From Megasphaera sp. (GTDB lineage: Bacteria > Bacillota > Negativicutes > Veillonellales > Megasphaeraceae), in assembly GCA_022486585.1 (NCBI GenBank), contig JAKVKI010000018.1, positions 1 through 47,382 on the forward strand: DNA of 47,382 nucleotides, read 5' to 3'. Each line of letters opens with the position of its first letter. The first letter of the stretch is position 1. Below are positions 28,744 through 44,600 of the stretch, in pieces. The notes under the pieces were generated by a model. It did no database searches, had not been told where the DNA came from, and worked only from the letters and a program-made list of their open reading frames with translations. The translations under genes and the position numbers were made by a program.

Positions 28744-28766
28744 TCACATCTGATTACAACAACGAA

Positions 28767-28800
28767 CCCCGTTACGAGAGAACTCGTAACGGGGTATTTT
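28767..28800 (+). terminator. Terminator of the dedA-GT39-GT39-UDG operon
   Basis: CCCCGTTACGAG and CTCGTAACGGGG form a 12-bp perfect stem around AGAA, followed by TATTTT. Confidence 0.92.
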
Positions 28801-28915: not shown

Positions 28916-29473
28916 TCAGACGATCGATTCTCCTAGTTTTTCTATGATAGACAGCAAACCAGTTGCTGCCACATCACCTTTTGCATTGGTCGCCGGCGAT
29001 ACGATCATATCGCGGACTTTCATACCGTTAAAGGCAGACACCATGGTAAAGAATTTCTTGATCATATCGAAATCACTGGCATCAGCCGTTTCTCCACAAG
29101 CCAGGAGTATGCTTTCCTGAATATGCAGATGTTTGGCACCGTTTGCCGGATCATATTGATACAGCCGGTCGATGACGGCCTTGACCTGTGCCGGTACCAT
29201 GGACCAGTAAAGCGGCGTCGCAATGACTAGTACATCAGCTGCTTCCAAAAGCGGTTCTATTTCTCTCATGCCATCATCAAAAATGCAGTTCTGCCGTAAA
29301 TTCCAGCATTGATTGCAGGCTGTACAGCCGTGGATATTCAAGGCGGCGACGCGGATTTTATGAACGGTACGGCCGCTTTTTTCTGCACCTTTGATAAACG
29401 CATCAGCCATCATTTCACTATTGCCGTTCTTACGGGGACTGCCGGCAAGAACCAGGACATTTTTATTTGCCAT
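28916..29473 (-). CDS. Iron-sulfur flavoprotein-like NAD(P)H:FMN reductase family protein
   Basis: A 185-residue flavodoxin-fold protein. The FMN loop is AGSPRKNGNS (10-19), ATPLYWSMVPAQVK is the second loop, and CX2CX2CX6C (Cys50, 53, 56, 63) is the compact iron-sulfur pattern, the same as in the 11880 gene. The start is the ATG at 29473 because AGGTGG lies 5-6 nt upstream; the in-frame GTG at 29482 falls inside that ribosome site. It follows the aldehyde dehydrogenase gene after a terminator-like hairpin. It may serve redox needs of that pathway, but this is only position-based. Confidence 0.82.
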   Translation of the reverse strand: MANKNVLVLAGSPRKNGNSEMMADAFIKGAEKSGRTVHKIRVAALNIHGCTACNQCWNLRQNCIFDDGMREIEPLLEAADVLVIATPLYWSMVPAQVKAVIDRLYQYDPANGAKHLHIQESILLACGETADASDFDMIKKFFTMVSAFNGMKVRDMIVSPATNAKGDVAATGLLSIIEKLGESIV

Positions 29474-29494
29474 ATAGACCACCTAACTAAAAAA

Positions 29495-29542
29495 GTCCCC
29501 TCATCGTGTGTGCCGCCCTGAATCAGGCAGGACAGCACACAC
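29495..29542 (-). terminator. Hairpin between the aldehyde dehydrogenase and flavoprotein genes
   Basis: On the minus strand GTGTGTGC (29535-29542) pairs with GCACACAC (29506-29513) around an inner stem CCTG/CAGG, and a T run follows after about 11 nt. The long gap to the T run makes it a weak or regulated terminator. Confidence 0.5.
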
Positions 29543-29594
29543 TCCGGGATAGAGAAAAGAGTTAAAGGATTACCGAACTATAAGGATTTGCGTC

Positions 29595-31106
29595 TTATTT
29601 CTTAATCAACGCAGTAGCCACTTTTTTGACTTCAGCCGTGTAACGGTCGAAGGCGAGGAAGTCGCCCATGCCATCTTTGTGTTCAAAGAGGCGTTTCTTC
29701 GGCGATACATCGCAGTAGCCGACAGTCTTCAAGCGAGAGAATTCAGCGCAAGAATAGCCAGCGCCTTCTACGCCGATACCAGTGCTCTTGCAGCCGCCAA
29801 AGGGTTGGTCATTATGACGGAGTGCGCTGGAACCATTGACCCATACAGCCGATGATTCAATTGCTTCACCGAAGTAATGAGCTTTTTTCAAGTCTTTCGT
29901 AATAACGGAGGAGCTCAGGCCATACGAACTCTGGTTAGCAATGGCAACAGCTTCTTCATCTGTATCATATGTAATGATAGGAACGATAGGACCAAATACT
30001 TCCATATCTTTGGCAATGTCCATATCTTTAGTAACGTTGTCCAAGATCGTAACATCGAATTTGCAGCCATCACGATGACCACCATAAATGATCTTAGCGC
30101 CCTGATCAACAGTATGCTGGATCTGAGATTCAACGCGTTCAGCTGCTTTTACTGTGACCAAACGAGTCAATTCTGCTGTCGGATCCGTAGCGTCGCCGCG
30201 TTTTAAGCCGGAAACGAATTTGAGCAGGCATTGTACAAAAATGTCATGTGCTTTTCTGTGAACGATGGTTCTCTTCGGAGATGCGCAGACCTGGCCATTG
30301 TTTTCAACGATACGGCCCCAGCCAAGGCATTCGATAGCTTTGACCATGAGTTCCGGATCTTCAGCACATTCTTCCGTAATAATAAGAGGATCATTGCCGC
30401 CTAATTCAAGGATAACTTTCTTAATATCCGGAGCAGCGTCGTTCATGATAGCTGTGCCGGCTTTGCCGCCGCCAGTAAGAGCGATGCAAGCTACTTTTTT
30501 ATTCGTCAGGAGATATTCTGTGCAAACATCGATATCAGCTGTGATGTAGTGGAGTACATCTTTCGGAACGCCAGCTTCATGAGCCAGATCGATGAGGATC
30601 TTAACGTTGATTGCTGCATTCGGATCTGCTTTGATGATCATGGAGTTACCCATCAACAATGCCGGTACCATTTTCTGGATTGTCAATTCAACAGGGTAAT
30701 TGAACGGAATAATACCGACAACAACGCCTAATGCTTCGTGTGTTACTGTTACAACATGATTTTCATACCCTTCAGAGCTGTCGCAGAGGACACGGCCATA
30801 AAGATGTTTGCCTACTTCGATGTTGTTACGGCCAATTTCAGCAGCATACGTTGTTTCTGCTCTGGCCTGCATGATGGGCTTGCCCATTTCATTAGCCATT
30901 GCTGTTGCGATTTCATCGCGGTGCTGGTCGACGAGAGCACAGAATTTGTACAATACAGCGCCCCGTTCAAACAAAGGAACCTTTTCCCAATCAGATTGTA
31001 CAGCAAAAGCTGTGTCAACCATCTTTGCAATTTCCGGTCCATCAAATTTAGGAACCTGACCTACTACTGTGTTGTTACCTTCGTTAATGACGTCTACCAT
31101 TTTCAT
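29595..31106 (-). CDS. Aldehyde dehydrogenase (NAD(P)-dependent, semialdehyde-type)
   Basis: A 503-residue member of the ALDH superfamily. The catalytic Cys is 274 in ENNGQVCASPKR, the general base is Glu234 (VILELGGNDP), the oxyanion Asn is 136 (IIPFNYP), and Lys159 contacts cofactor (IIKADPN). Compared with succinate-semialdehyde dehydrogenases it has the TGGGKAG cofactor loop and a long C-terminus (AEVKKVATALIKK). The start ATG at 31106 follows AAAGGAGGAAATGAATC. It is transcribed from its own promoter, whose -10 overlaps a copy of the AT-rich element of the B12 cluster, so it probably oxidises an aldehyde produced in that pathway. The substrate is unknown. Confidence 0.88.
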   Translation of the reverse strand: MKMVDVINEGNNTVVGQVPKFDGPEIAKMVDTAFAVQSDWEKVPLFERGAVLYKFCALVDQHRDEIATAMANEMGKPIMQARAETTYAAEIGRNNIEVGKHLYGRVLCDSSEGYENHVVTVTHEALGVVVGIIPFNYPVELTIQKMVPALLMGNSMIIKADPNAAINVKILIDLAHEAGVPKDVLHYITADIDVCTEYLLTNKKVACIALTGGGKAGTAIMNDAAPDIKKVILELGGNDPLIITEECAEDPELMVKAIECLGWGRIVENNGQVCASPKRTIVHRKAHDIFVQCLLKFVSGLKRGDATDPTAELTRLVTVKAAERVESQIQHTVDQGAKIIYGGHRDGCKFDVTILDNVTKDMDIAKDMEVFGPIVPIITYDTDEEAVAIANQSSYGLSSSVITKDLKKAHYFGEAIESSAVWVNGSSALRHNDQPFGGCKSTGIGVEGAGYSCAEFSRLKTVGYCDVSPKKRLFEHKDGMGDFLAFDRYTAEVKKVATALIKK

Positions 31107-31175
31107 GATTCATTTCCTCCTTTAGGATACATGCGTAATATATTGTTCAAAAATATTTTATTAATATTTTTATTA

Positions 31176-31249
31176 CACTTATAATAACATCGATATTGTT
31201 ATTTGTCAATGATTTATAATATGTATTTTTAAAATAGTTATAATAAGTT
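31176..31249. promoter_or_regulatory. AT-rich operator-like elements at the aldehyde dehydrogenase promoter
   Basis: CACTTATAATAA (31176-31187) matches a half of the 37882 palindrome in 11 of 12 bases. At 31223-31249, GTATTTTTAAAA-TAG-TTATAATAAGTT resembles the full palindrome, with 7 of 12 and 11 of 12 matches in its two halves. They flank the -35 element. The ROK-type regulator is the likely ligand, by inference. Confidence 0.5.
31181..31209 (-). promoter_or_regulatory. Promoter of the aldehyde dehydrogenase gene
   Basis: On the minus strand a perfect TTGACA (31204-31209), a 17-nt spacer and TATTAT (31181-31186). The -10 lies inside the half-site CACTTATAATAA (31176-31187, plus-strand reading). 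Confidence 0.8.
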
Positions 31250-31314
31250 AGTGCTGCCCCTGAAGCCACTGCATAGAACCGCTATCAACAGGCTTTATCC
31301 ATTATTTCAGGATC

Positions 31315-31587
31315 TTATTCTTTAGGGAGATATTTATCTCTTTCACGGCCATACTCAGTAATCACACAATGGATGACCAGATTATCCTGACTGTCAAATT
31401 CCAGCTGTGCCGCTTTAAAGAAACCGACTCCTAAAAACGAATCGACATATTCTTCTACGTGTTTCGGTGTGAAAATAGCTTCACCTTCATATTCAGACTG
31501 CAGATCCTGTAACACGTCTTGTACGGTAAAATCACTGCCCTTGTTAATGGCATACTGCAAAATACGGGTCTTTAATGGTAATTTCAT
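31315..31587 (-). CDS. Small hypothetical protein of the B12 cluster
   Basis: A 90-residue protein I do not recognise. Its first half (ILQYAINKGSDFTVQDVLQDLQSEYEGEAIFTPKHVEEYVDSFLGVGFF) has the helix pattern of a winged-helix domain, and the second half (AAQLEFDSQDNLVIHCVITEYGRERDKYL) could be its wing. It may be a DNA- or protein-binding accessory factor. The start ATG at 31587 follows TTAAGGAGGCAATACT, 12 nt after the transporter gene, and it is the last gene of that operon before the aldehyde dehydrogenase promoter. Confidence 0.7.
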   Translation of the reverse strand: MKLPLKTRILQYAINKGSDFTVQDVLQDLQSEYEGEAIFTPKHVEEYVDSFLGVGFFKAAQLEFDSQDNLVIHCVITEYGRERDKYLPKE

Positions 31588-31599
31588 AGTATTGCCTCC

Positions 31600-32652
31600 T
31601 TAAGATACATCGCGAAGGTTGACAAGGTCTTTGGGATTGCCAATCGTAAAAATCAAGCCGGCAACAACGATGAAAGCGCCGATAATATTCATCTGTGTGA
31701 CCATATACGGTTCCACTCCGAGGAAAGCAAACAGGAAACCTAAGGGAATGCTCCAAATAGGACGAGAGCTATCTACAGCCAGTACACGGGACGGACCGGT
31801 GCGGTTAAATGCTAAGTAAGCAGCATTATAGTTGATAGCACCTAACAAGCCCATGACAATGGTCATGATCAACAAGGACGGCGTCCCTAACGCAATGGCA
31901 ATGATCGATACATAGGCATCCAGATTACCGGTCATGAAGGACAAGACAAACATGGAAAACATCCCGATAACAGCAGAACCTAAGCAACGATACATGCCGC
32001 AGCCTACATTCGGATCGATCATATCACCAGCATACGTAGAAAACTGTCCTTCCAACGTAAACCCGATCGGTGCCAGCAAAGCCAGACAGATTCCCAGGAT
32101 ATAATTACTGCCGCCGCCGACGACACCTTCCCAGCCGGATACGATAGCCCCGCAAACAACGATGATGACACCGATGTCGATACGCATATTCAGCTTTTCT
32201 TTCAAGAAGAAGCTGCTGACGAATACCGTCATGACCGGACCAAGACTCGTAATAACAGCTACCATCGTCAAACCGCAGAACGGCGTCGCCGCCATCCAGC
32301 ATCCTGTAGCCATAGGGCCGGCAAATGCTGCAGACAATAACATGAACCACGATATCTTCAAATTCGCTGTACGTTTATATTCTTCAAGGCCTTTCCCATT
32401 GGCCAGATTATAGATAAAGGTGAAAATAGACCCGAAGAAATCGCCTAACGCCAATAATGTAATGGAACAAATAATGCTGACAATGACCATGTCCTGTAAC
32501 GAAGCCGACACGCTATCCGTGACGGATGAGTTGAAAATGTTCTGCAAAATTGCCGTGACTGGCATCAAGATTGCTATTTTCAAACCGCTCGTAGCCATTT
32601 TTATTTTTTTGCTGCGATAGGCCTCTTGTGGTGTTAATACTGCACTTGCCAT
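31600..32652 (-). CDS. DMT-superfamily (EamA-like) transporter
   Basis: A 350-residue membrane protein with about ten helices in two repeats. Helix pairs such as VITSLGPVMTVFVSSFFLKEKLNMRIDIGVIIVVCGAIVSG and MGLLGAINYNAAYLAFNRTGPSRVLAVDSSRPIWSIPLGFLFAFLGVEPYMVTQMNIIGAFIVVAGLI are the EamA signature. The family exports or imports small metabolites such as amino acids. The N-terminus (LTPQEAYRSKKIKMATSG) is longer than usual. The start ATG at 32652 follows AAAGGGATGATGTAGT. It sits right after the cobalamin protein gene, so it likely moves the pathway's substrate or product. Direction is not deducible. Confidence 0.85.
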   Translation of the reverse strand: MASAVLTPQEAYRSKKIKMATSGLKIAILMPVTAILQNIFNSSVTDSVSASLQDMVIVSIICSITLLALGDFFGSIFTFIYNLANGKGLEEYKRTANLKISWFMLLSAAFAGPMATGCWMAATPFCGLTMVAVITSLGPVMTVFVSSFFLKEKLNMRIDIGVIIVVCGAIVSGWEGVVGGGSNYILGICLALLAPIGFTLEGQFSTYAGDMIDPNVGCGMYRCLGSAVIGMFSMFVLSFMTGNLDAYVSIIAIALGTPSLLIMTIVMGLLGAINYNAAYLAFNRTGPSRVLAVDSSRPIWSIPLGFLFAFLGVEPYMVTQMNIIGAFIVVAGLIFTIGNPKDLVNLRDVS

Positions 32653-32698
32653 ACTACATCATCCCTTTCATGTATACACATAGATCGCCTCATGCTGT

Positions 32699-34459
32699 CT
32701 AATCAGCCAGCATATAATTAATGATTTTTTCAAAATCATTGGTAGCACAAATCCCCAGTTCATTGACCATATCGGATACGTCTACCGGTTCCGTATATCC
32801 TGGCAGCATTGCATTGAGCATGCCGCCTAACACGATTTTATATTTCTTGCCCCGTTTCTTTTCCTGGGCTGCTAATTGTTTGGCATAATCCAGGACCTGC
32901 CCGCAATGGATGCTCACGCAAATGATATCAGCGTCTTCTTCATCTGCCAGATCCAGCACAAACGATGATTCCATATAGGTGCCGCTGTTAATGACTTCCG
33001 CACTCATAGCAGACCAAACGTTGTCAATGAGCAGTAATCCATAGCTATGACCGTCAGCAGAAGCACAAATAACTCGTTTCCCCTTAAGTGCTCCTTCATA
33101 TCCTTTTTGTTTCAATTCCTGAACGATGGCCTTCTGCATATCCATCGTTTCTTTCGCCAGTACAGTTTGCACATACGGTTTGAATTTGCCAAATTCCTGT
33201 TTGCTCGGATGGAAGGCATGCTCGAACCGCACGGGATCAAAGTGGCGCAGTACCATAATCATTTCCAGCGGATCTTTTACGTTGACCCCGGCTTGTACGA
33301 AGCTGTCTATGACATTATGATAAAACAGTTCGCCCTTATCTATCAATAGATCCCGCATTTCTTCAAACTTAGTGAAATCGATGAATTGCAGCCATTCTTT
33401 TGCTTTTCGTTCTACACCGATGCCGCATTTTACGACATTGAACAGTTCTTCTAAGGTCGGTACCCGCAACGCTTCTGTAATCGATACTGGATTGATAATG
33501 GTCGGCATATTGTACTTCAGGTTAATAACGGATTCGATGAGCATTTCTGATGCCGCTAATCCGTAATTGGCCTCAATATCATGGTTCCATTGTTCATTCG
33601 TCGAGCCATTATAATAGGTAACGAAAGGGTGCTCCGGCGTACTGTACAGTTTATCCATAGCCATGGCAAAACCCATACGAGGTACGATTTCTGACAACAA
33701 GCCGCCATACGAAAGAGCCATACGGGCTCCGCACAGATCTTCAATGATGTAATGTTCTACCATTTCGTAGCCCAAATAGGATACTACATCCATGAACGAA
33801 CCTGGCAGTCCATCTTCAGGATACGTAAGACAGTCCATTCCTTCTTCCTTTTTTACGGACAAGATGCCCATATTACGACACATGTCAGAAAATCGGTTGA
33901 TTTCGTCATGATAGCCCGGATAGTCCCAGACGAAGGTAGAAAAACAGCCGAGCCGTGACGTACCGGCAGCAAAAGCATATTTTGTTTCTTTTAAATTATT
34001 CGGGCTTGCCAAGTGCCAATCCTGCCAGCAAACATCGACAGGTGCCGCTTCTGTATGTGCCAGCCAGTCTTCTTCTTTTTCCATGCGGTAACTCGTCGGA
34101 TTCGGAACTCCGTCCCAATACGACGGCGGCAAGCCTACGAGCGAGCTGGGAATAGACTGCAAGGAGCGAACTTCAAATCCCGTTCGTTTATGGAACGTAT
34201 CTATTTCCTTGATGGCATCGAGTTCTTCTGATAACGTAGACAACCCTACGAGGAGCTGATACGTCTGTTTACCTTTGGTCAAATTATCTTTTCGATATGC
34301 CAAATGACTTTCATATCCCGTTTCCCGCAGGAATCGGGACTTGTTGATAGGAAACTCTCCGGCCATTTGCCGCCCTTCTTCAACAAGGGCATTGCCGTCA
34401 GGAAAGTCCACAGGAATGAGACTCTGTATATATTCTTTGAGATCCTGGCTGAGTTCCAT
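32699..34459 (-). CDS. Cobalamin-binding mutase-like protein (fused barrel plus B12 domain)
   Basis: A 586-residue protein. The C-terminal part (about 455-586) is a B12-binding domain: DGHSYG at 469-474 is the DxHxxG motif whose His471 would bind cobalt, and GG is at 545-546. The middle SxL motif is altered to SIH (Ser516, His518). The larger N-terminal part (about 1-440) has an alpha-beta pattern and short stretches (YGLAASEMLIESVINLKYNMPTIINPVSITEALRVPTLEEL) resembling the large subunit of glutamate mutase, where the same region reads TPHEA-x-IPT. So it may be an adenosylcobalamin mutase with both functions fused. The start ATG at 34459 follows AAGGGGGAATAAAAG, 3 nt after the HyuA-like stop. 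I do not know its substrate. Methyltransferase-type corrinoid use is the main alternative. Confidence 0.65.
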   Translation of the reverse strand: MELSQDLKEYIQSLIPVDFPDGNALVEEGRQMAGEFPINKSRFLRETGYESHLAYRKDNLTKGKQTYQLLVGLSTLSEELDAIKEIDTFHKRTGFEVRSLQSIPSSLVGLPPSYWDGVPNPTSYRMEKEEDWLAHTEAAPVDVCWQDWHLASPNNLKETKYAFAAGTSRLGCFSTFVWDYPGYHDEINRFSDMCRNMGILSVKKEEGMDCLTYPEDGLPGSFMDVVSYLGYEMVEHYIIEDLCGARMALSYGGLLSEIVPRMGFAMAMDKLYSTPEHPFVTYYNGSTNEQWNHDIEANYGLAASEMLIESVINLKYNMPTIINPVSITEALRVPTLEELFNVVKCGIGVERKAKEWLQFIDFTKFEEMRDLLIDKGELFYHNVIDSFVQAGVNVKDPLEMIMVLRHFDPVRFEHAFHPSKQEFGKFKPYVQTVLAKETMDMQKAIVQELKQKGYEGALKGKRVICASADGHSYGLLLIDNVWSAMSAEVINSGTYMESSFVLDLADEEDADIICVSIHCGQVLDYAKQLAAQEKKRGKKYKIVLGGMLNAMLPGYTEPVDVSDMVNELGICATNDFEKIINYMLAD

Positions 34460-34462
34460 CTT

Positions 34463-36469
34463 TTATTCCCCCTTTTTCCAGGTAGTCAGTACTGCATTTG
34501 CCTGAAAGGGTGTGCCTTTCCGGCAACGATGGAAATTGACGGTAATGCGTACAAGCCGTTCCATAAAGATTCTCCGATGGGTCTGCTTGTCTTCAAAGGT
34601 CAGGTCCTCTTGTTCATGGTGCAACTGATAAATACAATGGGGGGACATTTCCTTGATATAGGCATTGCCGATTTGAATGGCATAGATAGTAGCCTCTTCT
34701 AAGGTCGCCTTAGGTACGCGGGCCCGTGGCGAATATACGACGAATTGGCTGGTCACGCTATCGGGACGGATGAGGATCTCCATCGTTTCCACATCACGGC
34801 CTACGGCTGCACCTACAGCATTGGCTACTTCTGCATGCTCCGGAATGATGACCCGGGCCTGCAAGGATTTACCCATTTGAGAAATCCAGGCACTTGCCGG
34901 CGCGCCGATACCGATGATTTTTTTTGGCAGTGTATACGACGCTTGCAATACAGTCGATTTCTTATCGAAAAACAAACTATTCAAGAAATAATCATCCGTA
35001 CCGCCTGGCGTCATATCAATATCCTGATGATCAAAATACAGCGCCGCCGCGATTGCTGCCGTATCCAGTTTACGAACAAAGGCTTCCTTGACGGCTTGAA
35101 TGAATTCATCATGGCTCATACCCAGCACATCTGTAATAATGGAAAGCAAGATCTTGGCCGCATCAGGATTCCACAAGGCATATTCCCCTGTCGCATGGAG
35201 TATATCTGTCGGCGTAAGGGATATACGAGCAATGACACCTTTAGCCGTCAGGCCATCCAGCAGATGGTGGAGTTTGTTAATAGGAATATGGTTCTCCAAA
35301 TAGTCCAGCGTATGTGGTTCATTGCGCAGTACGTTGATCAACACTTTTTCTTCTTCGTTATAGGCCAAATTGTCATACCGCTTGATCAGCTGATAGGCTT
35401 CATGGTCATGGAAGCGAAAGTGTTTATATTTCTTCTCTTCATACATGAAATCGATTTCATAGCCTAGCGACGGATGCAGTGCTACTGCCAGGGATACAGG
35501 GATTGATTTTTCCGGACCGATACAGATACGACCGTGGGAATCCACGTAAATACGGCTGTCGCCGCCAAGGCCTACTGTAAAGATTTCTGTTGCCCGTACA
35601 TGTGTGAACCAATTGCCGACTTTAGCACCATCATTACGGATAGACGGCCGGCCGCCGGTAATGTTGGCAATATCCGTCGTCGTACCGCCCATATCGATAA
35701 TGAAGGCATCCTTTTTGCCAGATAGATGAACGCCGCCAATGACACTGGACGCCGGCCCTGACAGAATCGTGTCGATAGGTTTATTCCGCGCCGACACTTC
35801 TGTCATCAGGCTGCCATCTCCTTTGACAACCATCAGCGGTGCATTCATCTGGTATTGCGTCATCACGTCTTTGACCGTGTCAATGAGCTCACAAATCATG
35901 GGAATGAGCTTGGCATTCAAATCTGCCGTTACGGTCCGGTCATAAAAGCCTAAGGACGAGGTGAGTTCATGGGCACAAGCAACGGGAATGCCCAGCTTTT
36001 CTTCAGCAATTCGTTTGACATACATTTCATGATGAGGATTGCGAACACTGGCATACCCGGATACGGCCAGGGCATCGACTTCACCGCGGAACGATTCAAT
36101 GACCCGATCGACTTCTGCCGGATCCAGTGCTTCTTTGAGCCGTCCTTTAATATCGAACTTCCCCTTGACGACAGCGACCTTGCTCGAGCTCAAACGCCCT
36201 CGCGGCCGCTCGCCAATAAGGATGAGTCCGTCTTTACAGCCATGATTTTCAACGATGGCATTCGTCGCCAGTGTCGTCGACAAGCAAACCATGAATACGC
36301 CGGCCAGCAACTGTTTCGGCATGTGAGCGAACCCCGTAGCAATACACTCACATAGATCACCTTTCGTCGTCAACGTCTTATATTTTGCTAATACTTTTTT
36401 TGTGTCTGCTGATACGATGACCAGATCGGTATACGTACCACCTGTATCGATGCCCATGATTTTCTTCAT
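34463..36469 (-). CDS. HyuA/oxoprolinase-like ATPase, no HyuB partner
   Basis: A 668-residue protein of the hydantoinase A / N-methylhydantoinase family in the actin-like ATPase superfamily. The phosphate loop is IDTGGTYTDLV (6-16), a second nucleotide loop is IDMGGTTTDIANI, and TTLATNAIVE and GERPRGRL are family landmarks. In known enzymes HyuA works with HyuB to hydrolyse hydantoin or 5-oxoproline. No HyuB is present here; the neighbour is the cobalamin protein, 3 nt downstream. Relatives of this fold reactivate B12 and other radical enzymes, so a reactivase is a reasonable inference. The start ATG at 36469 follows GAGGACGTTGCG. Confidence 0.85.
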   Translation of the reverse strand: MKKIMGIDTGGTYTDLVIVSADTKKVLAKYKTLTTKGDLCECIATGFAHMPKQLLAGVFMVCLSTTLATNAIVENHGCKDGLILIGERPRGRLSSSKVAVVKGKFDIKGRLKEALDPAEVDRVIESFRGEVDALAVSGYASVRNPHHEMYVKRIAEEKLGIPVACAHELTSSLGFYDRTVTADLNAKLIPMICELIDTVKDVMTQYQMNAPLMVVKGDGSLMTEVSARNKPIDTILSGPASSVIGGVHLSGKKDAFIIDMGGTTTDIANITGGRPSIRNDGAKVGNWFTHVRATEIFTVGLGGDSRIYVDSHGRICIGPEKSIPVSLAVALHPSLGYEIDFMYEEKKYKHFRFHDHEAYQLIKRYDNLAYNEEEKVLINVLRNEPHTLDYLENHIPINKLHHLLDGLTAKGVIARISLTPTDILHATGEYALWNPDAAKILLSIITDVLGMSHDEFIQAVKEAFVRKLDTAAIAAALYFDHQDIDMTPGGTDDYFLNSLFFDKKSTVLQASYTLPKKIIGIGAPASAWISQMGKSLQARVIIPEHAEVANAVGAAVGRDVETMEILIRPDSVTSQFVVYSPRARVPKATLEEATIYAIQIGNAYIKEMSPHCIYQLHHEQEDLTFEDKQTHRRIFMERLVRITVNFHRCRKGTPFQANAVLTTWKKGE

Positions 36470-36521
36470 CGCAACGTCCTCAACTCTTCGCGCTATATGT
36501 CATTCTGTACACTGTATGTAT

Positions 36522-37841
36522 TTATTTTATCTTATTGAAAATCGCATCCATCTTTTCCAGTGTTTCATCAATATCTGCTTCTGTATGAGCCGTCAGCAGT
36601 GCCCGATGGCCCGGTGTGATCGCTGCTGATGTATCATGGAACCACAGACCGTAGGATAACGCTTCTGTTACGAATTTTCTATCCATCGACCGATCAAATT
36701 CCGTCGCAATTTTACGGAAATCATAATCGTCATCAGGATTTTCTACGCCGAAGTATATGGCCCAGCGAGCACCGACACCGCGAGCATGACCTTTCATACC
36801 ATGTTTCTTGAAGAGGTCGTTGACGCCGTTGTACAGTTTGTTGCCAATCGTATCGAAATGATCATAGAAGCCCGGTTCTAATGCCATTTTCAAACATTCT
36901 ACCGATACCATGACCGGCATCAGCGCACCTGTATAGGTACCACTCATGGCAACATTGCCTATTGGATTGAAATGATCCATGATTTCCGCTTTGCCGCCAA
37001 TAAGGGAGATGGACATGCCGCCACCAATGGCTTTTGCCGTCGTCGTCATATCCGGATAGACACCGAAGAATTTCTGTGCCGAACCAGGACGGACACGCAG
37101 GCCTGTAATGACTTCATCAAAAATAAGGATAATGCCTTCACGAGTACAAATATCACGAACTTGTTGTAAGAAGCCTTCTTTTGGAATCATGCAGCCACAG
37201 TTGAAGCTGATCGGTTCCATGATCAGGCAGGCGATTTCCCCTTTGTATTTCTTAACGATATGTTCCAGTGCATCAACGTCATTGAATACGACTGTCAGTA
37301 CAGGATTGACGGCATCATGCTGAAAACCTGCAGAGTCCGGCGTCGTCACGACCTGGCCATAAGCGTCTTCTTCGTGGACAGCGCTATGATTGAACCAGAT
37401 GTTTTCGTGCATGCCATGGAAATGACCTTCAAAACGAAGTACTTTGTCACGGCCTGTAAAGCCACGAGCCAATCGAATAGCACCCTGTGTCGCTTCCGAA
37501 CCGGTATTGGCCAGACGGATTTTTTCGCAGCTCGGGAAAATCTGCCGAACCAGTTTAGCCAGTTCGATCGTATCTTCCGTATCGTAATTCATGAAGAAGC
37601 CCCGTTCTACTGCTTTTTCTATCGCTGCTTTCAAACGCGGGTGATTGTGTCCGAACAATGCCGCACCGGAACCGCCATGATAATCAATATAGGAGTTGCC
37701 TTCTACATCATAGAGCCGGCAGCCGTCAGCATGATCCAAATACAACGGATGCCCCATGACACCGTTATACCGTTGGCCCGCCGAAGACCCTGCTACTAAA
37801 TACTGTTTTGCGTCTTCATACATATCCTGCATTTTACCCAT
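36522..37841 (-). CDS. Class III aminotransferase (glutamate-1-semialdehyde aminotransferase-like)
   Basis: A 439-residue PLP enzyme. YIDYHGGSGAALFGHNHP, NTGSEATQGAIRLARGFTGR (112-131), FEGHFHGMH, IFDEVITGLRVRPG (240-253) and TTTAKAIGGGM with Schiff-base Lys270 are as in GSA aminomutase (HemL) and class III transaminases. No other haem genes are near, and its place in the B12 operon argues for a catabolic transaminase or aminomutase on another amino acid. The start ATG at 37841 follows GCGGAGGAGTAAATT. It is the first gene of the operon, with the 37882-37908 palindrome just upstream. Confidence 0.87.
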   Translation of the reverse strand: MGKMQDMYEDAKQYLVAGSSAGQRYNGVMGHPLYLDHADGCRLYDVEGNSYIDYHGGSGAALFGHNHPRLKAAIEKAVERGFFMNYDTEDTIELAKLVRQIFPSCEKIRLANTGSEATQGAIRLARGFTGRDKVLRFEGHFHGMHENIWFNHSAVHEEDAYGQVVTTPDSAGFQHDAVNPVLTVVFNDVDALEHIVKKYKGEIACLIMEPISFNCGCMIPKEGFLQQVRDICTREGIILIFDEVITGLRVRPGSAQKFFGVYPDMTTTAKAIGGGMSISLIGGKAEIMDHFNPIGNVAMSGTYTGALMPVMVSVECLKMALEPGFYDHFDTIGNKLYNGVNDLFKKHGMKGHARGVGARWAIYFGVENPDDDYDFRKIATEFDRSMDRKFVTEALSYGLWFHDTSAAITPGHRALLTAHTEADIDETLEKMDAIFNKIK

Positions 37842-37881
37842 AATTTACTCCTCCGCTCTTTTATGAAATAACTTATTGTTT

Positions 37882-37908
37882 CACTTATTATAATATTTAT
37901 AATAAGTG
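37882..37908. promoter_or_regulatory. 27-bp perfect palindrome upstream of the B12-cluster operon
   Basis: CACTTATTATAA (37882-37893) and its exact inverse TTATAATAAGTG (37897-37908) are separated by TAT. It lies 41 nt upstream of the aminotransferase start and contains TATAAT on the minus strand, so a bound regulator would cover the -10 region. Long palindromes with a 3-5 nt spacer are usual for ROK repressors. Confidence 0.75.
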
Positions 37909-38002
37909 TACAAATATTTAACTACCTGCATTGTATCATGTCGTTTATCATAAGTCAATACGAATATGCATGTTTGTTATATGCCATTCCTTTACGATAT
38001 CC

Positions 38003-40297
38003 TTACCTGCCATGCTTGCCTTTATTGCATTTTTTCGCCAAATATGCCGCCGTATACGATGACGGACATTGCAGCAATCCCTGCAGACGGCCCTGGTACA
38101 CGACATGGCCTCCTGTAGTCCCTCCGTCCGGTCCCATATCGATGATCCAATCGGCCTGACTGATAATATCAAAATTATGCTCTACTGCTAGTACGGTGTT
38201 GCCGTTATCGACGAGCTGATTCAGCAAGCCGAGCAACACAGCTACATCTTGACCATGCAAGCCAGCTGACGGTTCATCCATAATATAGAATTGATTCTTT
38301 TCGTGCAGACGAGCTGCCAATTTCAGGCGCTGGCATTCTCCGCCAGATAAGGTCGCCGTCGTCTGACCCAAGGTTAAATACGACAGCCCCACCTCCGCTA
38401 ACGGCCGTAATTTTCGTCTTATAGGCGTATCTTTAAAAAACTCCATCCCTTCGGAGACAGTCATCTGCAAGACCTGAGCAATGGTCTTCCCATGATAGGT
38501 ATACGATAAAGCTTCGTCATTGTATTTTTTGCCATTACAGGCTTCACAGACGCGAACGACAGGATCCATAAAAGACATTTCGACTTCAATGACACCTTTA
38601 CCTTTGCAGACCGGGCAGGCACCTTGGGAGTTGAAGCTGAACAACGCCGGCGATACACCGTTTTCCTTGGCAAAGGCTTTGCGAATCATATCCCATACGC
38701 CGCTGTACGTCGCCGGTGTCGAACGACTGCTAAGGCCCATAGCCGACTGACTGATATATACGGCTTCCGGTACGGCTTTGGGAATCTCATATTTAGCCAG
38801 CGAGCTCTTCCCCGAGCCGGACACACCGCTAATGACGGTCAGTGTGTTCTTCGGAATCGTCACGCTCACATCCTTCAAGTTATTGGCGTTGCAGTGGTGC
38901 AGTGTAATCGTATCGCGAACTGCCCGTACGTGCTGTTTCAGCATCACTGTCTGATGGAGCCATTGGCCTGTAGGTGTCGCACTGTGACACAGCTCTTGTA
39001 CCGTCCCCTGAAAGATAACCTGCCCGCCGGCCTTGCCCGCCTTAGGGCCCAGCTCGATGACCTGATCTGCGCCTTCGATAATACTGCTGTTATGTTCCAC
39101 AATAAACACGGAGTTGCCCCGATCCCGCAAGCCGGTCAGCAAGCGCCGCAACCGTTCCAAATCTTTGGCATGAAGCCCTGTCGATGGTTCATCAAAAATA
39201 TACGTCACGCCAATAAGACTGCTGCCTAAATGCCGGATGATTTTCAGACGCTGTACTTCGCCGCCGGACAAGGTCACGGTCTGGCGATTCAAATGAAGAT
39301 ATCCCAACCCGACACGGTCCATATCCTGCAATACGGCTACGATGCGCTGGATGATCGCTTGTCCATCGTGCTGTCGGAACTGCAACAACAGGGGAATAAG
39401 CGCAGCGATCTCCATTTCTCCTATATCCCAAATAGTTTTTCCCAGGATGGTGCTCTGCAACGCCTTCTCGTTCAGACCCGTGCCCTGGCAGTACGGACAA
39501 GGCTGCTGTGTCGTAAAATCACGGATGATCTGCAAATTGAGTTTGCTCATAGTACTCAGACTCTTTTTTAGATACAGTCTGATAATTCGTTTTTCCAGTC
39601 CTTCATAGGTCAAATTATAGGATGAATCCCAAACTTTTCCTGTCGTATTTTTGATTTCTACAATATTGCCGGCAGCGTGGAGAAAATCATCCCACTCTTT
39701 GTCCGTATATGCCGCCAAGGGCTTGTCATTGTCAAACAACCCGGAGTTGGCATACATCTGCCATTGATACGTACCAATTTGAAAACCAGGCAACAGAATA
39801 GCGCCTTCATTTAATGATTTAGATGTATCCAAGACCTTGTCCATAGCAAACTGCACGGTCTTGCCGGCACCATTGCAATGGGGGCACATGCCGGCCGGGT
39901 CATGCGCTGAATAGCAGTTGGACATGCCTGCTGAATGGCTGGCACACCGGGAAAACAACATGCGCAGCATAGGACTGAGCTCTGTCATCGTCCCTACAGT
40001 CGAACGACTGTCACCGTGGAAGGGGCGTTGATCAACGACAATGGCTGTCGTCAAGTTCTCAATGCTATCGACATCCGGCTTTGGCTGATAGGCCATGCGA
40101 TTGCGGATATATAAAGGAAAGAGATCCTGTAGCTGCCGCTGAGATTCTGCAGCAATCGTATTGAACACGAGGGATGATTTCCCTGAGCCGGATACGCCTG
40201 TAAATGCCACAATCCGTCCTTTGGGAATAGAAATATCGATTCCCTTCAAGTTATGTTCCCTGGCTTGGCGGATAATGAGTTGATCTGTCTGATTCAT
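38003..40297 (-). CDS. Short UvrA-like ATPase (UvrA paralogue)
   Basis: A 764-residue protein with two ABC ATPase modules like UvrA, which is about 940 residues. Walker A sites are GVSGSGKS (34-41) and a second identical copy in the C-terminal half; signatures are LSGGEVQRLK and LSGGECQRLK. Zinc-binding Cys pairs are visible as CPHC, CPYC, CPVC and CEAC. Shortness suggests loss of the UvrB-binding insert. Such paralogues occur in drug and DNA-damage resistance and in antibiotic producers, but not all are proven. The start is the ATG at 40297, 12 nt after AGGAGG; the in-frame TTG at 40309 abuts that ribosome site. It follows the regulator gene by 16 nt. Confidence 0.85.
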   Translation of the reverse strand: MNQTDQLIIRQAREHNLKGIDISIPKGRIVAFTGVSGSGKSSLVFNTIAAESQRQLQDLFPLYIRNRMAYQPKPDVDSIENLTTAIVVDQRPFHGDSRSTVGTMTELSPMLRMLFSRCASHSAGMSNCYSAHDPAGMCPHCNGAGKTVQFAMDKVLDTSKSLNEGAILLPGFQIGTYQWQMYANSGLFDNDKPLAAYTDKEWDDFLHAAGNIVEIKNTTGKVWDSSYNLTYEGLEKRIIRLYLKKSLSTMSKLNLQIIRDFTTQQPCPYCQGTGLNEKALQSTILGKTIWDIGEMEIAALIPLLLQFRQHDGQAIIQRIVAVLQDMDRVGLGYLHLNRQTVTLSGGEVQRLKIIRHLGSSLIGVTYIFDEPSTGLHAKDLERLRRLLTGLRDRGNSVFIVEHNSSIIEGADQVIELGPKAGKAGGQVIFQGTVQELCHSATPTGQWLHQTVMLKQHVRAVRDTITLHHCNANNLKDVSVTIPKNTLTVISGVSGSGKSSLAKYEIPKAVPEAVYISQSAMGLSSRSTPATYSGVWDMIRKAFAKENGVSPALFSFNSQGACPVCKGKGVIEVEMSFMDPVVRVCEACNGKKYNDEALSYTYHGKTIAQVLQMTVSEGMEFFKDTPIRRKLRPLAEVGLSYLTLGQTTATLSGGECQRLKLAARLHEKNQFYIMDEPSAGLHGQDVAVLLGLLNQLVDNGNTVLAVEHNFDIISQADWIIDMGPDGGTTGGHVVYQGRLQGLLQCPSSYTAAYLAKKCNKGKHGR

Positions 40298-40313
40298 AAG
40301 ACCGTACAACCTC

Positions 40314-41336
40314 CTATAAGGGCTCAGAAATAGGAAACAACAGACGATTCAGCGATGCTCGCATGAGCCCGTGGTGGTATGTCGCATCATACGGGCAGTC
40401 TGCTGTAATCGTAGGAATATGCTTTTCTGTCACGACCTGTTTACATATATCCTGAATAGTTTGCAATTCGTCTGCTGTTAAATCCCCGTCGACAATGACG
40501 ATTTCTTCCGGGTCGATCGTACCGATCAGAATGAGCAGTATCTTCGCAATAAAAGGAATATATATATCCCGCTGGGAACGGATCGTGATCTGCTGCTGCC
40601 GAGAAATACCGAAAGCATCGGCAATGTACGATAATTCGCCGGCAAACTTCGTGAAGCCCCGTAAAACAAGGCCATTAATGACAGCACCGCTGCCAACGAC
40701 ACCGTTAGAAGCATTGGGGAAATACACGGCTGCCAGATTGCCTGTACCGCGAAAGACCGAATGGTAGGCGCCATACACGATAAAATCCATATCATTGCGC
40801 ACTTCTACATCGATATGGAACGCATCCTGAAGCTGGCCTTCCAGATCGACACCGACGATGGAATCAATGTCACAGCGTTCTACAATCCCCTTGTGTGTAA
40901 TACCGGGAATGCCAATAGATACGCTTCGTATCATCGTATCCGAGCAGGTCATCTCACCAATGATCGTTTCCAGTACACTGTAGTCAATCACCTCCGGATG
41001 GTATTCCTTGCGCACCAGTGTATGGCCTAAGGCATCTGCGCTTTCAACAGAAATATTATTTCCTTCACAGGTATTGGTCAAATAAATTCCCAATACATGG
41101 AGGCAGTCTTTATTGTATGTAAAACAATCTGCCGGCCGACCTACTACGATGTCTTCCTGTCCTACTTTGACGATCTCATTAGAAGCCAGCATTTCGTTGA
41201 TTGCTGTATTACACGTCGCCACACTGAGTTTCGTCAGTTTAGCAATATCTGCCTTGGTGCATTCTCCCTTTTCTTGCAATTCTTTGCGTATGCGTTCTTT
41301 ATTCAGTTTTTTCACTTTCAATGTATTCCACTGCAA
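40314..41336 (-). CDS. ROK-family transcriptional regulator
   Basis: A 340-residue protein. The N-terminal winged-helix (ERIRKELQEKGECTKADIAKLTKLSVATCNTAINEML, residues 14-49) is followed by a ROK sugar-kinase-like domain: IGIPGITHKGIVERCD, RNDMDFIVYGAYH, GVVGSGAVINGLVLRG and FAGELSYI. The classic zinc-binding Cys motif of ROK proteins is not obvious. The effector may be a sugar or an amino-acid derivative. The start is a TTG (41334-41336) with GGGAGG 5 nt upstream; no suitable ATG exists. The divergent position at the head of the cluster and its own promoter's palindromes suggest autoregulation. Confidence 0.82.
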   Translation of the reverse strand: MQWNTLKVKKLNKERIRKELQEKGECTKADIAKLTKLSVATCNTAINEMLASNEIVKVGQEDIVVGRPADCFTYNKDCLHVLGIYLTNTCEGNNISVESADALGHTLVRKEYHPEVIDYSVLETIIGEMTCSDTMIRSVSIGIPGITHKGIVERCDIDSIVGVDLEGQLQDAFHIDVEVRNDMDFIVYGAYHSVFRGTGNLAAVYFPNASNGVVGSGAVINGLVLRGFTKFAGELSYIADAFGISRQQQITIRSQRDIYIPFIAKILLILIGTIDPEEIVIVDGDLTADELQTIQDICKQVVTEKHIPTITADCPYDATYHHGLMRASLNRLLFPISEPL

Positions 41337-41387: not shown

Positions 41388-41420
41388 TTATAATAATTAT
41401 TATAATATATATTATAATAA
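41388..41420. promoter_or_regulatory. AT-rich palindromes at the regulator's own promoter
   Basis: TTATAATAA-TTATTATAA (41388-41405) is a perfect 18-bp palindrome. TTATTATAA and TTATAATAA separated by TATATA form a second perfect one (41397-41420), using the half-sites of the 37882 element with a 6-nt instead of 3-nt spacer. They overlap the -10 of the promoter. Autoregulation is inferred. Confidence 0.6.
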
Positions 41421-41620: not shown

Positions 41621-41656
41621 GCGAGCCCTGCCTCACATGGGAAGGGCTCGCTTTTT
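41621..41656 (+). terminator. Intrinsic terminator in the gltB leader
   Basis: GCGAGCCCT (41621-41629) pairs with AGGGCTCGC (41643-41651), followed by TTTTT. It begins about 11 nt after the predicted transcription start and ends 22 nt before the gltB start codon. No upstream plus-strand gene uses it, so it may be an attenuator or 5' hairpin. Confidence 0.7.
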
Positions 41657-41678
41657 GTACACTAAAGGGGGAGCTGCT

Positions 41679-44600
41679 ATGTACAAGAAATTACGTGATT
41701 TGCCGAAACCACAGGGGTTATATGATCCGGCATATGAACACGATGCCTGCGGCATAGGGTTCGTAGTCAATATCAAAGGGAAGAAATCATACAATATCAT
41801 TGATGATGCCTTGACCATTTTGGAAAACTTAAAACATCGTGGTGCCGAAGGGGCCGACGCCAAGAGTGGCGACGGGGCAGGCATCCTCGTCCAAATACCT
41901 CATCAGTTTTTCTGTCGTGAATGTGAAGTATTGGGGTTCTCCCTGCCTGACGAAGGGGAATACGGTGTCGGCATGATTTTTGCTCACCGCTATGAATCGT
42001 TCCGCAAAAAACAAGTCGAAGCCTTTGAAAAAATCGTTCGCGACGAAGGCCTGTCTGTCCTGGGATGGCGCGAAGTCCCTATTGATGAAAGCCTTATCGG
42101 CAACATTGCCAAGACGATTCGTCCCCGATTCTTACAAGTTTTCATCCAAAAGAGTCCGGATATTGCCAGTCAGATGGATTTTGAACGCAAGCTCTATGTC
42201 ATCCGCAAATTGGCAGAAAAAACTATCGTCCCTATTAGCCAGGAAAATGGCACAGATTTCTACATTGCCAGCTTGTCGTCACGGACGATTGTCTACAAGG
42301 GCATGCTGACTTCTATGCAACTGCGCCATTTCTACCTCGACCTGTCAGACCTGGATTTCACAACATCCATGGCCTTAGTTCACTCACGGTTCAGTACGAA
42401 TACCTTCCCGAGCTGGGCCCGGGCCCATCCGAACCGTTATATCGTCCACAATGGCGAAATCAATACGATTCAAGGTAATATCAACTGGCTCAACGCCCGT
42501 GAAAGCAAATCGAAATCGGAATTTTTCCCTGACATGGACAAGGTCTTCCCCGTCGTTGACGCCACGGGCAGTGATTCATCCATGTTCGATAACTGTTTGG
42601 AATATTTATATATGACCGGCCATTCCCTGCCGCAGGCTATGATGATGATGATCCCGGAACCTTGGGAACGAGATCCCCTCATGAGCCAGGAAAAGCGGGA
42701 TTTCTACCGCTATCATAACTTTATGATCGAACCGTGGGATGGCCCGGCGGCCATCGGCTTCTGTGACGGTGTCGTCATTGGTGGCATGCTGGATCGCAAT
42801 GGTCTGCGGCCGGCCCGCTACTACGTAACTCGCGATGACCGCGTCATTGCCAGCTCCGAAGTAGGGGTACTGCAAATCGACCCTGATAACATTCTCTACA
42901 AGGGCCGACTGGAACCGGGCAAGATGCTCCTCGTCGATACGAAACAGCAGAAACTCATCGACGACGATGAAGTAAAACGGCAGATCGCGACAGAACATCC
43001 CTATGCGGACTGGTATAATGAACATATTATCAACCTGGATGACCTCATGTCCTCACAGCAACTGGCCAACAATGATACGATCATCCCTTACGACTTAAAA
43101 GAACAAGAAAAAGTATTTGGCTATACGCAAGAGGATATGGATAAAATCATCCTGCCAATGGCCCGTGACGGAAAACATTCCATCGATTCGATGGGCGTCG
43201 ACGTACCACTGGCAGTACTATCAGACCAGCCACAATTGCTGTACGATTATTTCCAAGAAAATTTTGCCCAGGTCACTAACCCGGCTATTGACGGCGTTCG
43301 CGAAAACATCGTCATGTCTACAGCGGTCATGGCAGGCAACGTCGCCAATATCATGGATCCTAACGAAGCTTCTACAGCCGCATTATATTTAAAAACACCG
43401 ATTCTGACAAACGAACAGATGGCGACGATCAAATCGCTCATGACAGCAAAATTGCGGACAGCGACCTTGTCTATGCTGTACCCGGTCAACAGCGGTGCCG
43501 AAGGTATGAAAACGGCCATTGAATCACTATGTATCGATGCGCTCAAAGCCTTGAAGAATGGTGCTAACATCCTGGTTCTGTCAGACCGCGGCGTCAATTC
43601 CCGCATGGCCGCTATTCCGGCTCTGCTGGCTTCGGCAGCACTGCATCATTATCTCATCAAGAAAACAGTCCGCTCCAATGTCGGTCTTATTTTGGAATCA
43701 GGGGAACCGCGGGAAGTCCATCATTTCTGCACACTCATCGGTTATGGCATTACGGCCATCAACCCGTATGTCGCCTTAGAATCCATTAAGGAATTAGCAG
43801 CAAAACGAAAGCTTGGCAAAATCGATTATGAAACAGCAAAAACCAATTACCTCAAAGCGGCTAACAATGGTATCTTGGCAGTTATGTCCAAAATGGGCAT
43901 CTCTACCGTTCACAGTTATCACGGCGCTCAGATTTTTGAAGCTGTCGGCATTAGTCAGGACCTGATTAATACTTATTTCTGCAATACGCCTTCCCGTATC
44001 GGCGGCATCGGCATCACTGAAATCGCCAAGGAAAACGCTATTCGCCATCAAAAGGCCTATGAAGGCAGCGATAAGCTGGAACGGGGCGATTTCTATCAAT
44101 ACCATAAAGGCGGCCAGCCCCATATTATTGACCCGGAAACAGTACGTCTCCTGCAAAAAGCCGTAAAAACCAACGATTACAAGACCTATAAAGAATACGC
44201 CGCTCATGTGAACAAGCAATCCATCTTCCGTCTCCGTGACCTGCTGGAATTTGAATACCCCGTTGGCTGCAGCATTCCTATTGAAGAAGTCGAACCGGTC
44301 GATTCTATTGTCAAACGGTTCCGTACGGGTGCCATGAGCTACGGCGCCCTCAGCAAAGAAGCCCATGAATGCGTAGCAACTGCCATGAATCGACTGGGCA
44401 GCATGAGCAATACCGGTGAAGGCGGCGAAGATGCCAGCCGCTTCAATACAGAAAAAAACGACAAGATCAAACAGGTCGCCTCGGCTCGTTTCGGTGTTAC
44501 TAGCAACTATATTATCAACGCTAAAGAATTGCAGATCAAATGCTCTCAAGGGGCCAAGCCCGGTGAAGGCGGACATCTGCCGGGCAGCAAAGTCTATCCC

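Follow-up and report, generated by a model that had tools for sequence, protein, structure and literature searches.

Only a few kinds of rearrangement are known to depend on coenzyme B12, and each has opened a pathway. The described systems closest to the one considered here are glutamate mutase (MutE/GlmE and MutS/GlmS, with the partner protein MutL/GlmL), the ornithine 4,5-aminomutase pathway (Orr, OraSE, Ord and OrtAB) and 2-methyleneglutarate mutase, which is a single-chain adenosylcobalamin (AdoCbl)-dependent mutase of similar size to the protein described below, with a C-terminal B12 domain. We compare these with a set of genes in a 47,382-nucleotide stretch of DNA from Megasphaera sp. 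(GCA_022486585.1, contig JAKVKI010000018.1, positions 1–47,382, forward strand), hereafter called the window. The set includes a fused B12 protein of 586 amino acids (32699–34459, minus strand), a candidate AdoCbl-dependent mutase, and a lone HyuA-like ATPase of the ASKHA type (34463–36469, minus strand; PF05378 and PF01968), the candidate reactivase of the B12 enzyme. In order of transcription, the nine minus-strand genes encode a ROK regulator, a UvrA-like protein, a class III aminotransferase, the HyuA-like protein, the B12 protein, a DMT transporter, a 90-amino-acid protein, an aldehyde dehydrogenase (ALDH) and an FMN-reductase-like protein.

The unit shares with glutamate mutase a mutase-type B12 domain, an adjoining ASKHA-type partner and an amino-acid setting with a transaminase and a dehydrogenase; it differs in that the B12 protein is a single chain whose large domain has no detectable relation to MutE, the partner is HyuA-like and not GlmL, and methylaspartate ammonia-lyase is absent from the nine window genes. 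OraE of the ornithine pathway is found at rank 20 among the fold matches, and relatives of the B12 family adjoin Orr-like (locus L072), Ord-like (L092, L157) or OrtA/OrtB (L024) genes, although the Orr- and Ord-like proteins score below cut-off and none of OrtA, OrtB, Orr or Ord is encoded by the nine window genes. The neighbours in the window are also unlike those of the nicotinate-fermentation cluster to which 2-methyleneglutarate mutase belongs. In corrinoid methyltransferase clusters, too, a cobalamin protein can have a lone HyuA-like ATPase as its neighbour (L129, and a published gene map in PMC9768040), but there methyltransferases and a RACo-type activator go with it, whereas the nine window genes include a fused mutase-like protein and neither of these. 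Unlike the hydantoinase/oxoprolinase HyuAB systems, the nine genes include no HyuB-type partner. The unit resembles known B12-dependent amino-acid fermentations and is assigned to none of them, since every family considered has at least one defining feature that is lacking here or that gave no clear result. Within the open-licence literature, outside which most subscription papers lie, we recognised neither the B12 family nor a HyuA protein described as a mutase reactivase.

Partner ATPases in two clades of the B12 protein

Neighbouring genes were tabulated for 40 full-length B12 proteins from 38 loci (fragments below 500 amino acids, one each at L023 and L094, were dropped), using labels from profiles that were seeded from the same loci and applied at fixed bit thresholds, so that divergent genes would be missed. 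The tree of the 40 proteins has two sides separated with split support of 100/100, 18 rows falling on the side of the window and 22 on the other; its midpoint root serves for drawing only, and the long branches L096 and L015 are of unsure placement. Of the 18 rows on the window side, 16 have a HyuA-like gene in the vicinity, 17–7455 bp from the B12 gene (15 genes, the two rows of L095 sharing one). On the other side, a GlmL-like gene is found 5–42 bp from the B12 gene in 16 of the 22 rows, being absent at L096 and in five rhizobial rows. The two kinds of partner never occur together in the loci seen (0 of 40 rows), and genome G805, with one B12 protein from each side of the tree (L093 and L098), carries the matching kind of partner beside each.

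The proteins labelled GlmL-like are members of PF13941 (MutL) in all nine cases tested and matched NCBIfam GlmL models, the score for the model shown passing the subfamily cut-off and falling short of the equivalog one. NCBIfam describes GlmL-type proteins as accessory proteins of mutases. The N-terminal phosphate motif is the one stretch over which profiles of the HyuA-like and GlmL groups can be aligned (91% over 55 columns); weak similarity to PF13941 is nevertheless present in seven of seven members of the HyuA group at E < 0.001 (best 1.7e-9), the window protein itself remaining below the gathering score (21.9 versus 27 bits, over 28 residues). Among 148 genomes searched at E 1e-60, ten match the HyuA profile, including all four that have a HyuA-clade B12 protein. 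In the source genome no PF13941 protein was found, and the window HyuA protein is the only HyuA. It is because of this partner exchange with GlmL-family proteins that a reactivase-like role is suggested for the HyuA-like protein, which may serve the window-side clade as GlmL serves the sister clade. A reactivase had been proposed by an earlier, sequence-only reading of the window; the exchange of partners strengthens that proposal, and the setting of three close HyuA relatives, described below, qualifies it.

Several observations count against so simple a pairing. L029 has no HyuA gene beside its B12 gene, its genome carrying one at L028, and L092 also lacks one, in a contig that ends 15 bases after the B12 gene. 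The source genome is a draft of 1.9 Mb in 47 contigs with a completeness of 83%. Six of the ten HyuA-profile genomes in the set of 148 have no HyuA-clade B12 protein, and three close HyuA relatives (G795:C151, G856:C18 and G920:C271) are located in phosphonate-type clusters. No B12 gene was seen in the 5–17 kb around the HyuA genes of L071, L134 and L135. At L071 the phosphonatase-like gene reaches 160 bits where the cut-off is 220, and its counterparts at L134 and L135 are recognised by eye, having no Pfam match at 1e-10; the three HyuA genes are also near MFS-type transporter genes (by Pfam for L071 and by eye for L134 and L135), and two are near a PhnW-like transaminase, which is above cut-off at L134 and of class V at L135. 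Clusters of this kind, in which no B12 gene was seen, give the HyuA group at least one further setting.

Such clusters are what would be expected if the HyuA-like protein were itself a pathway enzyme that works on an amine-derived compound as an ATP-dependent hydrolase, lyase or kinase, with the mutase having either no reactivase or an unlinked one; that the HyuA profile matches a solved 5-oxoprolinase and, far short of cut-off, subunits of caprolactamase and acetophenone carboxylase points the same way. We consider this explanation unlikely, given that a HyuB-type partner is absent from the nine window genes, to which the search for HyuB was limited, that HyuA pairs with one B12 clade and is replaced by the GlmL family in the other, and that seven of seven group members retain the weak similarity to MutL. 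More distant lone HyuA genes also bear on the question. The one at L129 adjoins genes for a corrinoid-type protein, MTTB and a RACo-type activator, and a comparable gene map has been published, a figure legend in PMC9768040 naming a 'hydantoinase' within corrinoid methyltransferase clusters; both argue against an enzymatic role. The distant HyuA gene at L130 adjoins one for a URO-D-family protein, with a B12-domain open reading frame (ORF) about 7 kb off, and at L131, L132, L133 and L136 there is no match to the B12 profile in 14–17 kb.

Conservation and regulation of the unit

The ORFs and strands match the cluster described in the sequence-only reading, and the Pfam and NCBIfam identities of the genes agree with it; the unit stretches past the limits given there (29595–41336), down to 28916. 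Intergenic spacing is 3–52 bp from the aminotransferase gene through those for HyuA, B12 and DMT to the 90-amino-acid protein, with 161 bp upstream of the aminotransferase gene and 208 bp upstream of the ALDH gene. At 28766–28795, where genes converge, a strong inverted repeat of 13 bp is the likely terminator closing the unit.

Named genomes were scanned with a pattern, and its 49 matches yielded four loci. In Candidatus Allocopromorpha excrementigallinarum (L026; B12 protein 78% identical) the aminotransferase, HyuA, B12, DMT, 90-amino-acid, ALDH and FMN-reductase genes are in window order, in a contig that starts inside the aminotransferase gene and so leaves the ROK and UvrA-like side outside. 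An uncultured Ruminococcus (L027; 75%) has the gene set of L026 together with two ROK genes, a UvrA-like gene and a glutamate dehydrogenase gene, in rearranged order and with a MATE transporter gene between the last two; L107 (genome G1145) resembles L027 in gene set and also has two ROK copies, UvrA-like and ROK genes being seen at these two loci and not at L026. The remaining loci, L028 (41%) and L029 (39%), both belong to Peptococcaceae bacterium UBA5318 and retain the DMT gene, the 90-amino-acid protein gene and an ALDH gene of another kind, with HyuA at L028 alone. Aminotransferase, ALDH, B12 and HyuA genes also co-occur at L093, L094, L095, L107, L108 and L109. The undescribed B12-centred cluster that had been proposed is thus conserved, with its transaminase and ALDH, in unrelated Bacillota (L026, L027 and L107). 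Homologues without these neighbours would have spoken against it: relatives at 75–78% identity keep them, and those at 39–41% do so in part, in that both still have the transporter, an ALDH and the 90-amino-acid protein and one of them has HyuA as well.

Conservation of the whole set has limits that weigh on the other side. The aminotransferase was not found at L028 or L029, and the 9 kb around L072, L073, L110, L111 and L157 yielded neither aminotransferase nor ALDH, several contigs being short. Since several relatives have no aminotransferase or ALDH nearby, the chemistry must differ from one part of the B12 family to another. Neighbours near L072, L073 and L157 also differ (Orr-like, E1 subunits, Ord-like), L110 and L111 resembling L073 by eye, and the family therefore seems to serve several pathways, the one in the window apparently being the form that includes transamination and the oxidation of a semialdehyde. 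Kinase and aldolase genes are present at L109 and downstream in L026. L095 encodes two B12 paralogues, two HemL-like aminotransferases, a LarAH6 malate racemase, a type II glyceraldehyde-3-phosphate dehydrogenase, a phosphoglycerate kinase-like protein and a thiamine pyrophosphate enzyme; by eye there is also a malic enzyme, and the locus perhaps encodes a complete fermentation with substrate-level phosphorylation.

To examine regulation, the window was scanned for the palindrome TTATTATAANTATTATAA with up to three mismatches, the expectation being taken from 100 whole-window shuffles. This gave 11 match rows in 47 kb, several of them overlapping, against 0.20 expected and a shuffle maximum of 2, and all are confined to three promoter regions (31170–31246, 37885–37905 and 41388–41417). 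Operator-like palindromes with one to three mismatches precede the ROK gene (41388–41417); an operator-like inverted repeat with 11-bp arms and a 3-bp middle, free of mismatches and with both half-sites exact, precedes the aminotransferase gene (37883–37907); and sites with one to three mismatches, including one exact half-site, surround the promoter-like site of the ALDH gene (31170–31248). The other 16 HyuA-clade loci were scanned against an order-1 model in five runs; because the expectations come from whole-window shuffles or from this model, the contrast is inflated in AT-rich promoters. L027 has ten rows against 0.4 expected, nine of them intergenic, preceding the FMN reductase, aminotransferase, ROK, UvrA-like, glutamate dehydrogenase and ALDH genes, and L107 has ten against 0.0 expected, before the same genes except that of the ALDH. 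One row precedes the ALDH gene at L026, and three precede the B12 and HyuA genes at L157, where 1.2 are expected. An exact half-site occurs in six of 164 loci: three of these are L027, L107 and L157, and the other three duplicate DNA of the window or of L027.

The palindrome does less well elsewhere: up to three mismatches, it is not seen before the FMN-reductase gene of the window itself; L028, L073, L092, L108 and L111 have one or two rows each, partly intragenic; and L029, L072, L093, L094, L095, L109 and L110 have none. As a marker of the unit it holds for the window and for loci closely related to it, and not for the whole HyuA clade. It is because the palindrome precedes them in L027 and L107 that the glutamate dehydrogenase, FMN reductase and UvrA-like genes are joined to the unit. 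The ROK-family regulator, which has a winged helix-turn-helix (40314–41336, minus strand; PF00480 and PF13412) and operator-like palindromes just upstream of its gene, is likely to be the local repressor, and it may be the protein that binds the palindrome. A glutamate synthase gene with four Pfam domains (41637–46241) is divergent from the ROK gene, the operator-like sites between the two lying closer to ROK.

Promoter-like sites were found before the ALDH gene (31181–31209, minus strand; TTGACA-17-TATTAT, 11/12, 75 bp upstream of the start) and before the aminotransferase gene (37930–37958, minus strand; TTGACT-17-TACAAT, 10/12). Five sites score at least 10/12, four before the ROK, aminotransferase or ALDH genes and one inside the B12 gene. 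The ALDH site scores best in the window, in keeping with the promoter of its own that had been proposed for this gene; with 32 sites found against 25.0 ± 5.5 in shuffles, it is suggestive only.

The UvrA-like protein (38003–40309, minus strand) is shorter than UvrA, scoring 700.4 bits for TIGR00630 against a cut-off of 729.8; its residue 131 aligns with profile position 266, so that about 135 positions seem to be missing ahead of it, and L027 has a counterpart that is 58% identical. The class III pyridoxal phosphate (PLP)-dependent aminotransferase (36522–37841, minus strand; PF00202) resembles HemL, the glutamate-1-semialdehyde aminomutase, and is 71% identical to the L026 copy (213 amino acids seen) and 73% to that of L027. 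K270, the expected PLP lysine, is invariant in seven of seven sequences. A true HemL was rejected, the TIGR00713 score of 356.6 bits falling below the equivalog cut-off of 527.3. The EamA/DMT-family transporter gene (31600–32652, minus strand; PF00892) adjoins the B12 gene at L026–L029 and L107. Downstream of it is the gene for the 90-amino-acid protein (31315–31587, minus strand), and the pair recurs at L026, L027, L028 (twice), L029, L092 and L107. Library scans assigned this protein to no family, and its AlphaFold2 model from six rows has a predicted local distance difference test score (pLDDT) of 91; the nearest folds are LmrR/PadR, with a single match at E < 0.001, and the predicted fold agrees with the small winged-helix-like protein that had been proposed. 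The ALDH, a candidate semialdehyde dehydrogenase (29595–31106, minus strand; PF00171), is 78.5% identical to the L026 copy and scores under the cut-off of all 25 NCBIfam models shown. New to the unit is the FMN-reductase-like protein of flavodoxin fold (28916–29482, minus strand; PF03358/PF02525), relatives of which, at 53–54% identity, adjoin the unit at L026 and L027. A second, related FMN-reductase-like gene is located outside the unit at 11880–12413.

Given this gene content, we asked whether the unit might chiefly detoxify or export a harmful, perhaps DNA-damaging, natural amine, with the UvrA-like protein, the flavin reductase and the DMT or MATE transporters as its core. The UvrA-like and FMN-reductase-like genes within the apparent regulon of L027 and L107 would suit such a function, as would the position of the L027 MATE transporter gene. 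Glutamate dehydrogenase in the regulon, and the sugar- or amino-acid-type catabolic genes of relatives, point instead to nutrient use, and detoxification as the chief role appears distinctly improbable; the two functions are compatible and both could be true.

Relatives of the B12 protein are sparse. Counting the source genome whenever a set contains it, 12 of 380 genomes of the class have a match at E 1e-3 (three full-length and nine partial under 20 bits), and 3 of 398 genomes of the phylum have a relative at 1e-10. In the class of G651, 1 of 46 genomes has a relative; at 1e-20, relatives are found in 7 of 148 genomes of the G795 family, 4 of 250 of the G796 family and 14 of 393 of the G795 order, these sets overlapping. 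Of 169 stretches of viral contigs that fit the search pattern, none encodes a relative. Plasmids of rhizobia and their kin carry relatives at 24–26% identity (nine records, one partial), and in the five records retrieved for a view of the neighbourhood (L013–L017) they are near weakly ProC-like genes, with neither HyuA nor GlmL found within about 12 kb. No relative was found in any of the 14 same-genus genomes listed, and a genus-wide unit was set aside on this count. The G+C content of the unit is 0.44–0.475 against 0.50–0.51 on either flank, a value of 0.46 recurring at 6–12 kb in the window. Horizontal gain fits this dip and the absence from same-genus genomes, with which it is compatible, if unproven.

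Class of the B12 protein

PF02310, at residues 463–548 of the window protein, is the sole Pfam family matched by relatives of the B12 protein (25 of 25), and no Pfam model matches its first ~420 residues. The DxHxxG motif is present, D469 and H471 being invariant and G474 conserved at ≥90% across 25 rows. A profile of 25 relatives matched 38 distinct PDB sequences, in every case within profile positions 409–570; the three best are AdoCbl mutases, from 7e-13 (2yxb) to 4e-11, with glutamate mutase S second at 3e-12. Foldseek searches with an AlphaFold2 model of the protein placed methylmalonyl-CoA mutases at ranks 1–12 (best E 6e-7). On the B12-domain profile, the Foldseek ranking and the conserved D469, H471 and G474, a radical mutase would be the likeliest class, if an unproven one.

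This assignment is tempered by the quality of the model, which was built from five sequences and is weak (pLDDT 60; predicted TM-score, pTM, 0.62), and by the TM-scores of only 0.24–0.36 that the methylmalonyl-CoA mutases reach on it; in addition, methionine synthase, at 4e-11, is just behind the mutases in the profile search, and at rank 13 (3e-5) it is ahead of ornithine 4,5-aminomutase at rank 20 (6e-5) in Foldseek. AdoCbl-dependent radical mutases combine a substrate barrel with a base-off/His-on B12 Rossmann domain. The protein had been described as a barrel fused to a B12 domain; the domain is clear from PF02310, and an upstream barrel is weakly supported by the model. That the protein would instead be a corrinoid methyltransferase with barrel and B12 domain, as the close ranking of methionine synthases in both searches and the setting of the distant HyuA gene at L129 might suggest, is highly improbable given that the top three B12-domain profile matches are AdoCbl mutases, that the sister clade is paired with mutase accessory proteins of the GlmL family in 16 of 22 rows, and that the nine window genes encode no RACo-type activator.

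Glutamate-mutase type, also proposed for the protein, found no support in its large domain. PF06368 (MutE) gave no match in 25 of 25 family members, and alignment of the large domain with nine MutE sequences by hhalign gave a probability of 0.4%, with no detectable relation; classical glutamate mutase was rejected on these two results. For the B12 part, TIGR01501 (GlmS-type) scores 22.5 bits, far under its cut-off of 135.8, next to the DxHxxG motif and the second place of glutamate mutase S in the PDB profile search. OraE (3kow) matched at 467–545 alone (E 0.0023), with no similarity outside the B12 part. Selenocysteine, suggested by an in-frame TGA in two relatives, was rejected, these being ordinary stops at the gene end. 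At L094, beside the full copy, a short second ORF of the B12 family (16343–16774; 143 amino acids) is perhaps a decayed or misassembled paralogue. Another family of fused proteins with a weak PF06368 match was seen at L055 (9438–11069), L057 (8800–10446), L058 (8641–10290) and L060 (1411–3057), each adjoining a protein of 366–396 amino acids that by eye appears NAD-binding; these were rejected as members of the B12-protein family, a profile between them giving no match, and they apparently form a different undescribed B12/MutE-like pair.

Proposed pathway and wider meaning

Taking gene content, conservation, the palindrome and the exchange of partners together, we think it somewhat more likely than not that the genes from 28916 to 41336 are regulated together and break down an amine or amino acid. 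As an AdoCbl mutase, the B12 protein, a single chain from a family not yet described, would rearrange either the substrate itself or something made from it, and the HyuA-like ATPase would be its dedicated reactivase, equivalent to GlmL in the sister clade. β-Aminoisobutyrate/GABA interconversion, 5-aminolevulinate and nitro- or cyclitol-amines are conceivable candidates for the chemistry or the substrate. The HemL-like aminotransferase would pass the amino group to 2-oxoglutarate or pyruvate, and the ALDH would oxidise the semialdehyde arising from transamination; rearrangement and transamination could take place in either order. In relatives, the co-regulated glutamate dehydrogenase would regenerate the amino acceptor. 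The ROK protein, perhaps with the 90-amino-acid winged-helix protein, is predicted to repress the transcripts via the shared palindrome, and the DMT protein may carry substrate or product. A route of rearrangement, transamination and oxidation had been outlined in the sequence-only reading, and it gains from the conserved transaminase and ALDH genes and from the co-regulation of glutamate dehydrogenase at L027 and L107; its mutase activity, glutamate-mutase type and order of steps do not gain in the same way.

The GlmL-side clade is often near genes for pyrroline-5-carboxylate reductase, a proline-racemase-like protein, a HypD-like glycyl radical enzyme or OrtA/OrtB (L024, L096, L097, L158, L160 and L161, with OrtA/OrtB above cut-off at L024). 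For this clade an undescribed proline or hydroxyproline route ending in 2-amino-4-oxopentanoate, by way of the thiolase, is possible. More tentatively than for the window unit itself, we suggest a new family of coenzyme-B12 mutases that serves several undescribed amino-compound pathways with either HyuA or GlmL as reactivase, and in which the substrate or aldehyde of the window pathway damages DNA; that damage would be the reason for a UvrA-like gene in the regulon. Two named carriers of close relatives look gut-derived by name, and the substrate may therefore be a diet- or host-derived amino compound.

Two features give the locus its interest. The B12 family has a catalytic half that carries no annotation, and a regulatory motif links it to what may be a complete pathway; in addition, the exchange of partner ATPases found in nature predicts a role for lone HyuA proteins that experiments could probe. 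If this broader suggestion is true, it would provide a function, as reactivases, for many lone 'hydantoinase' genes.

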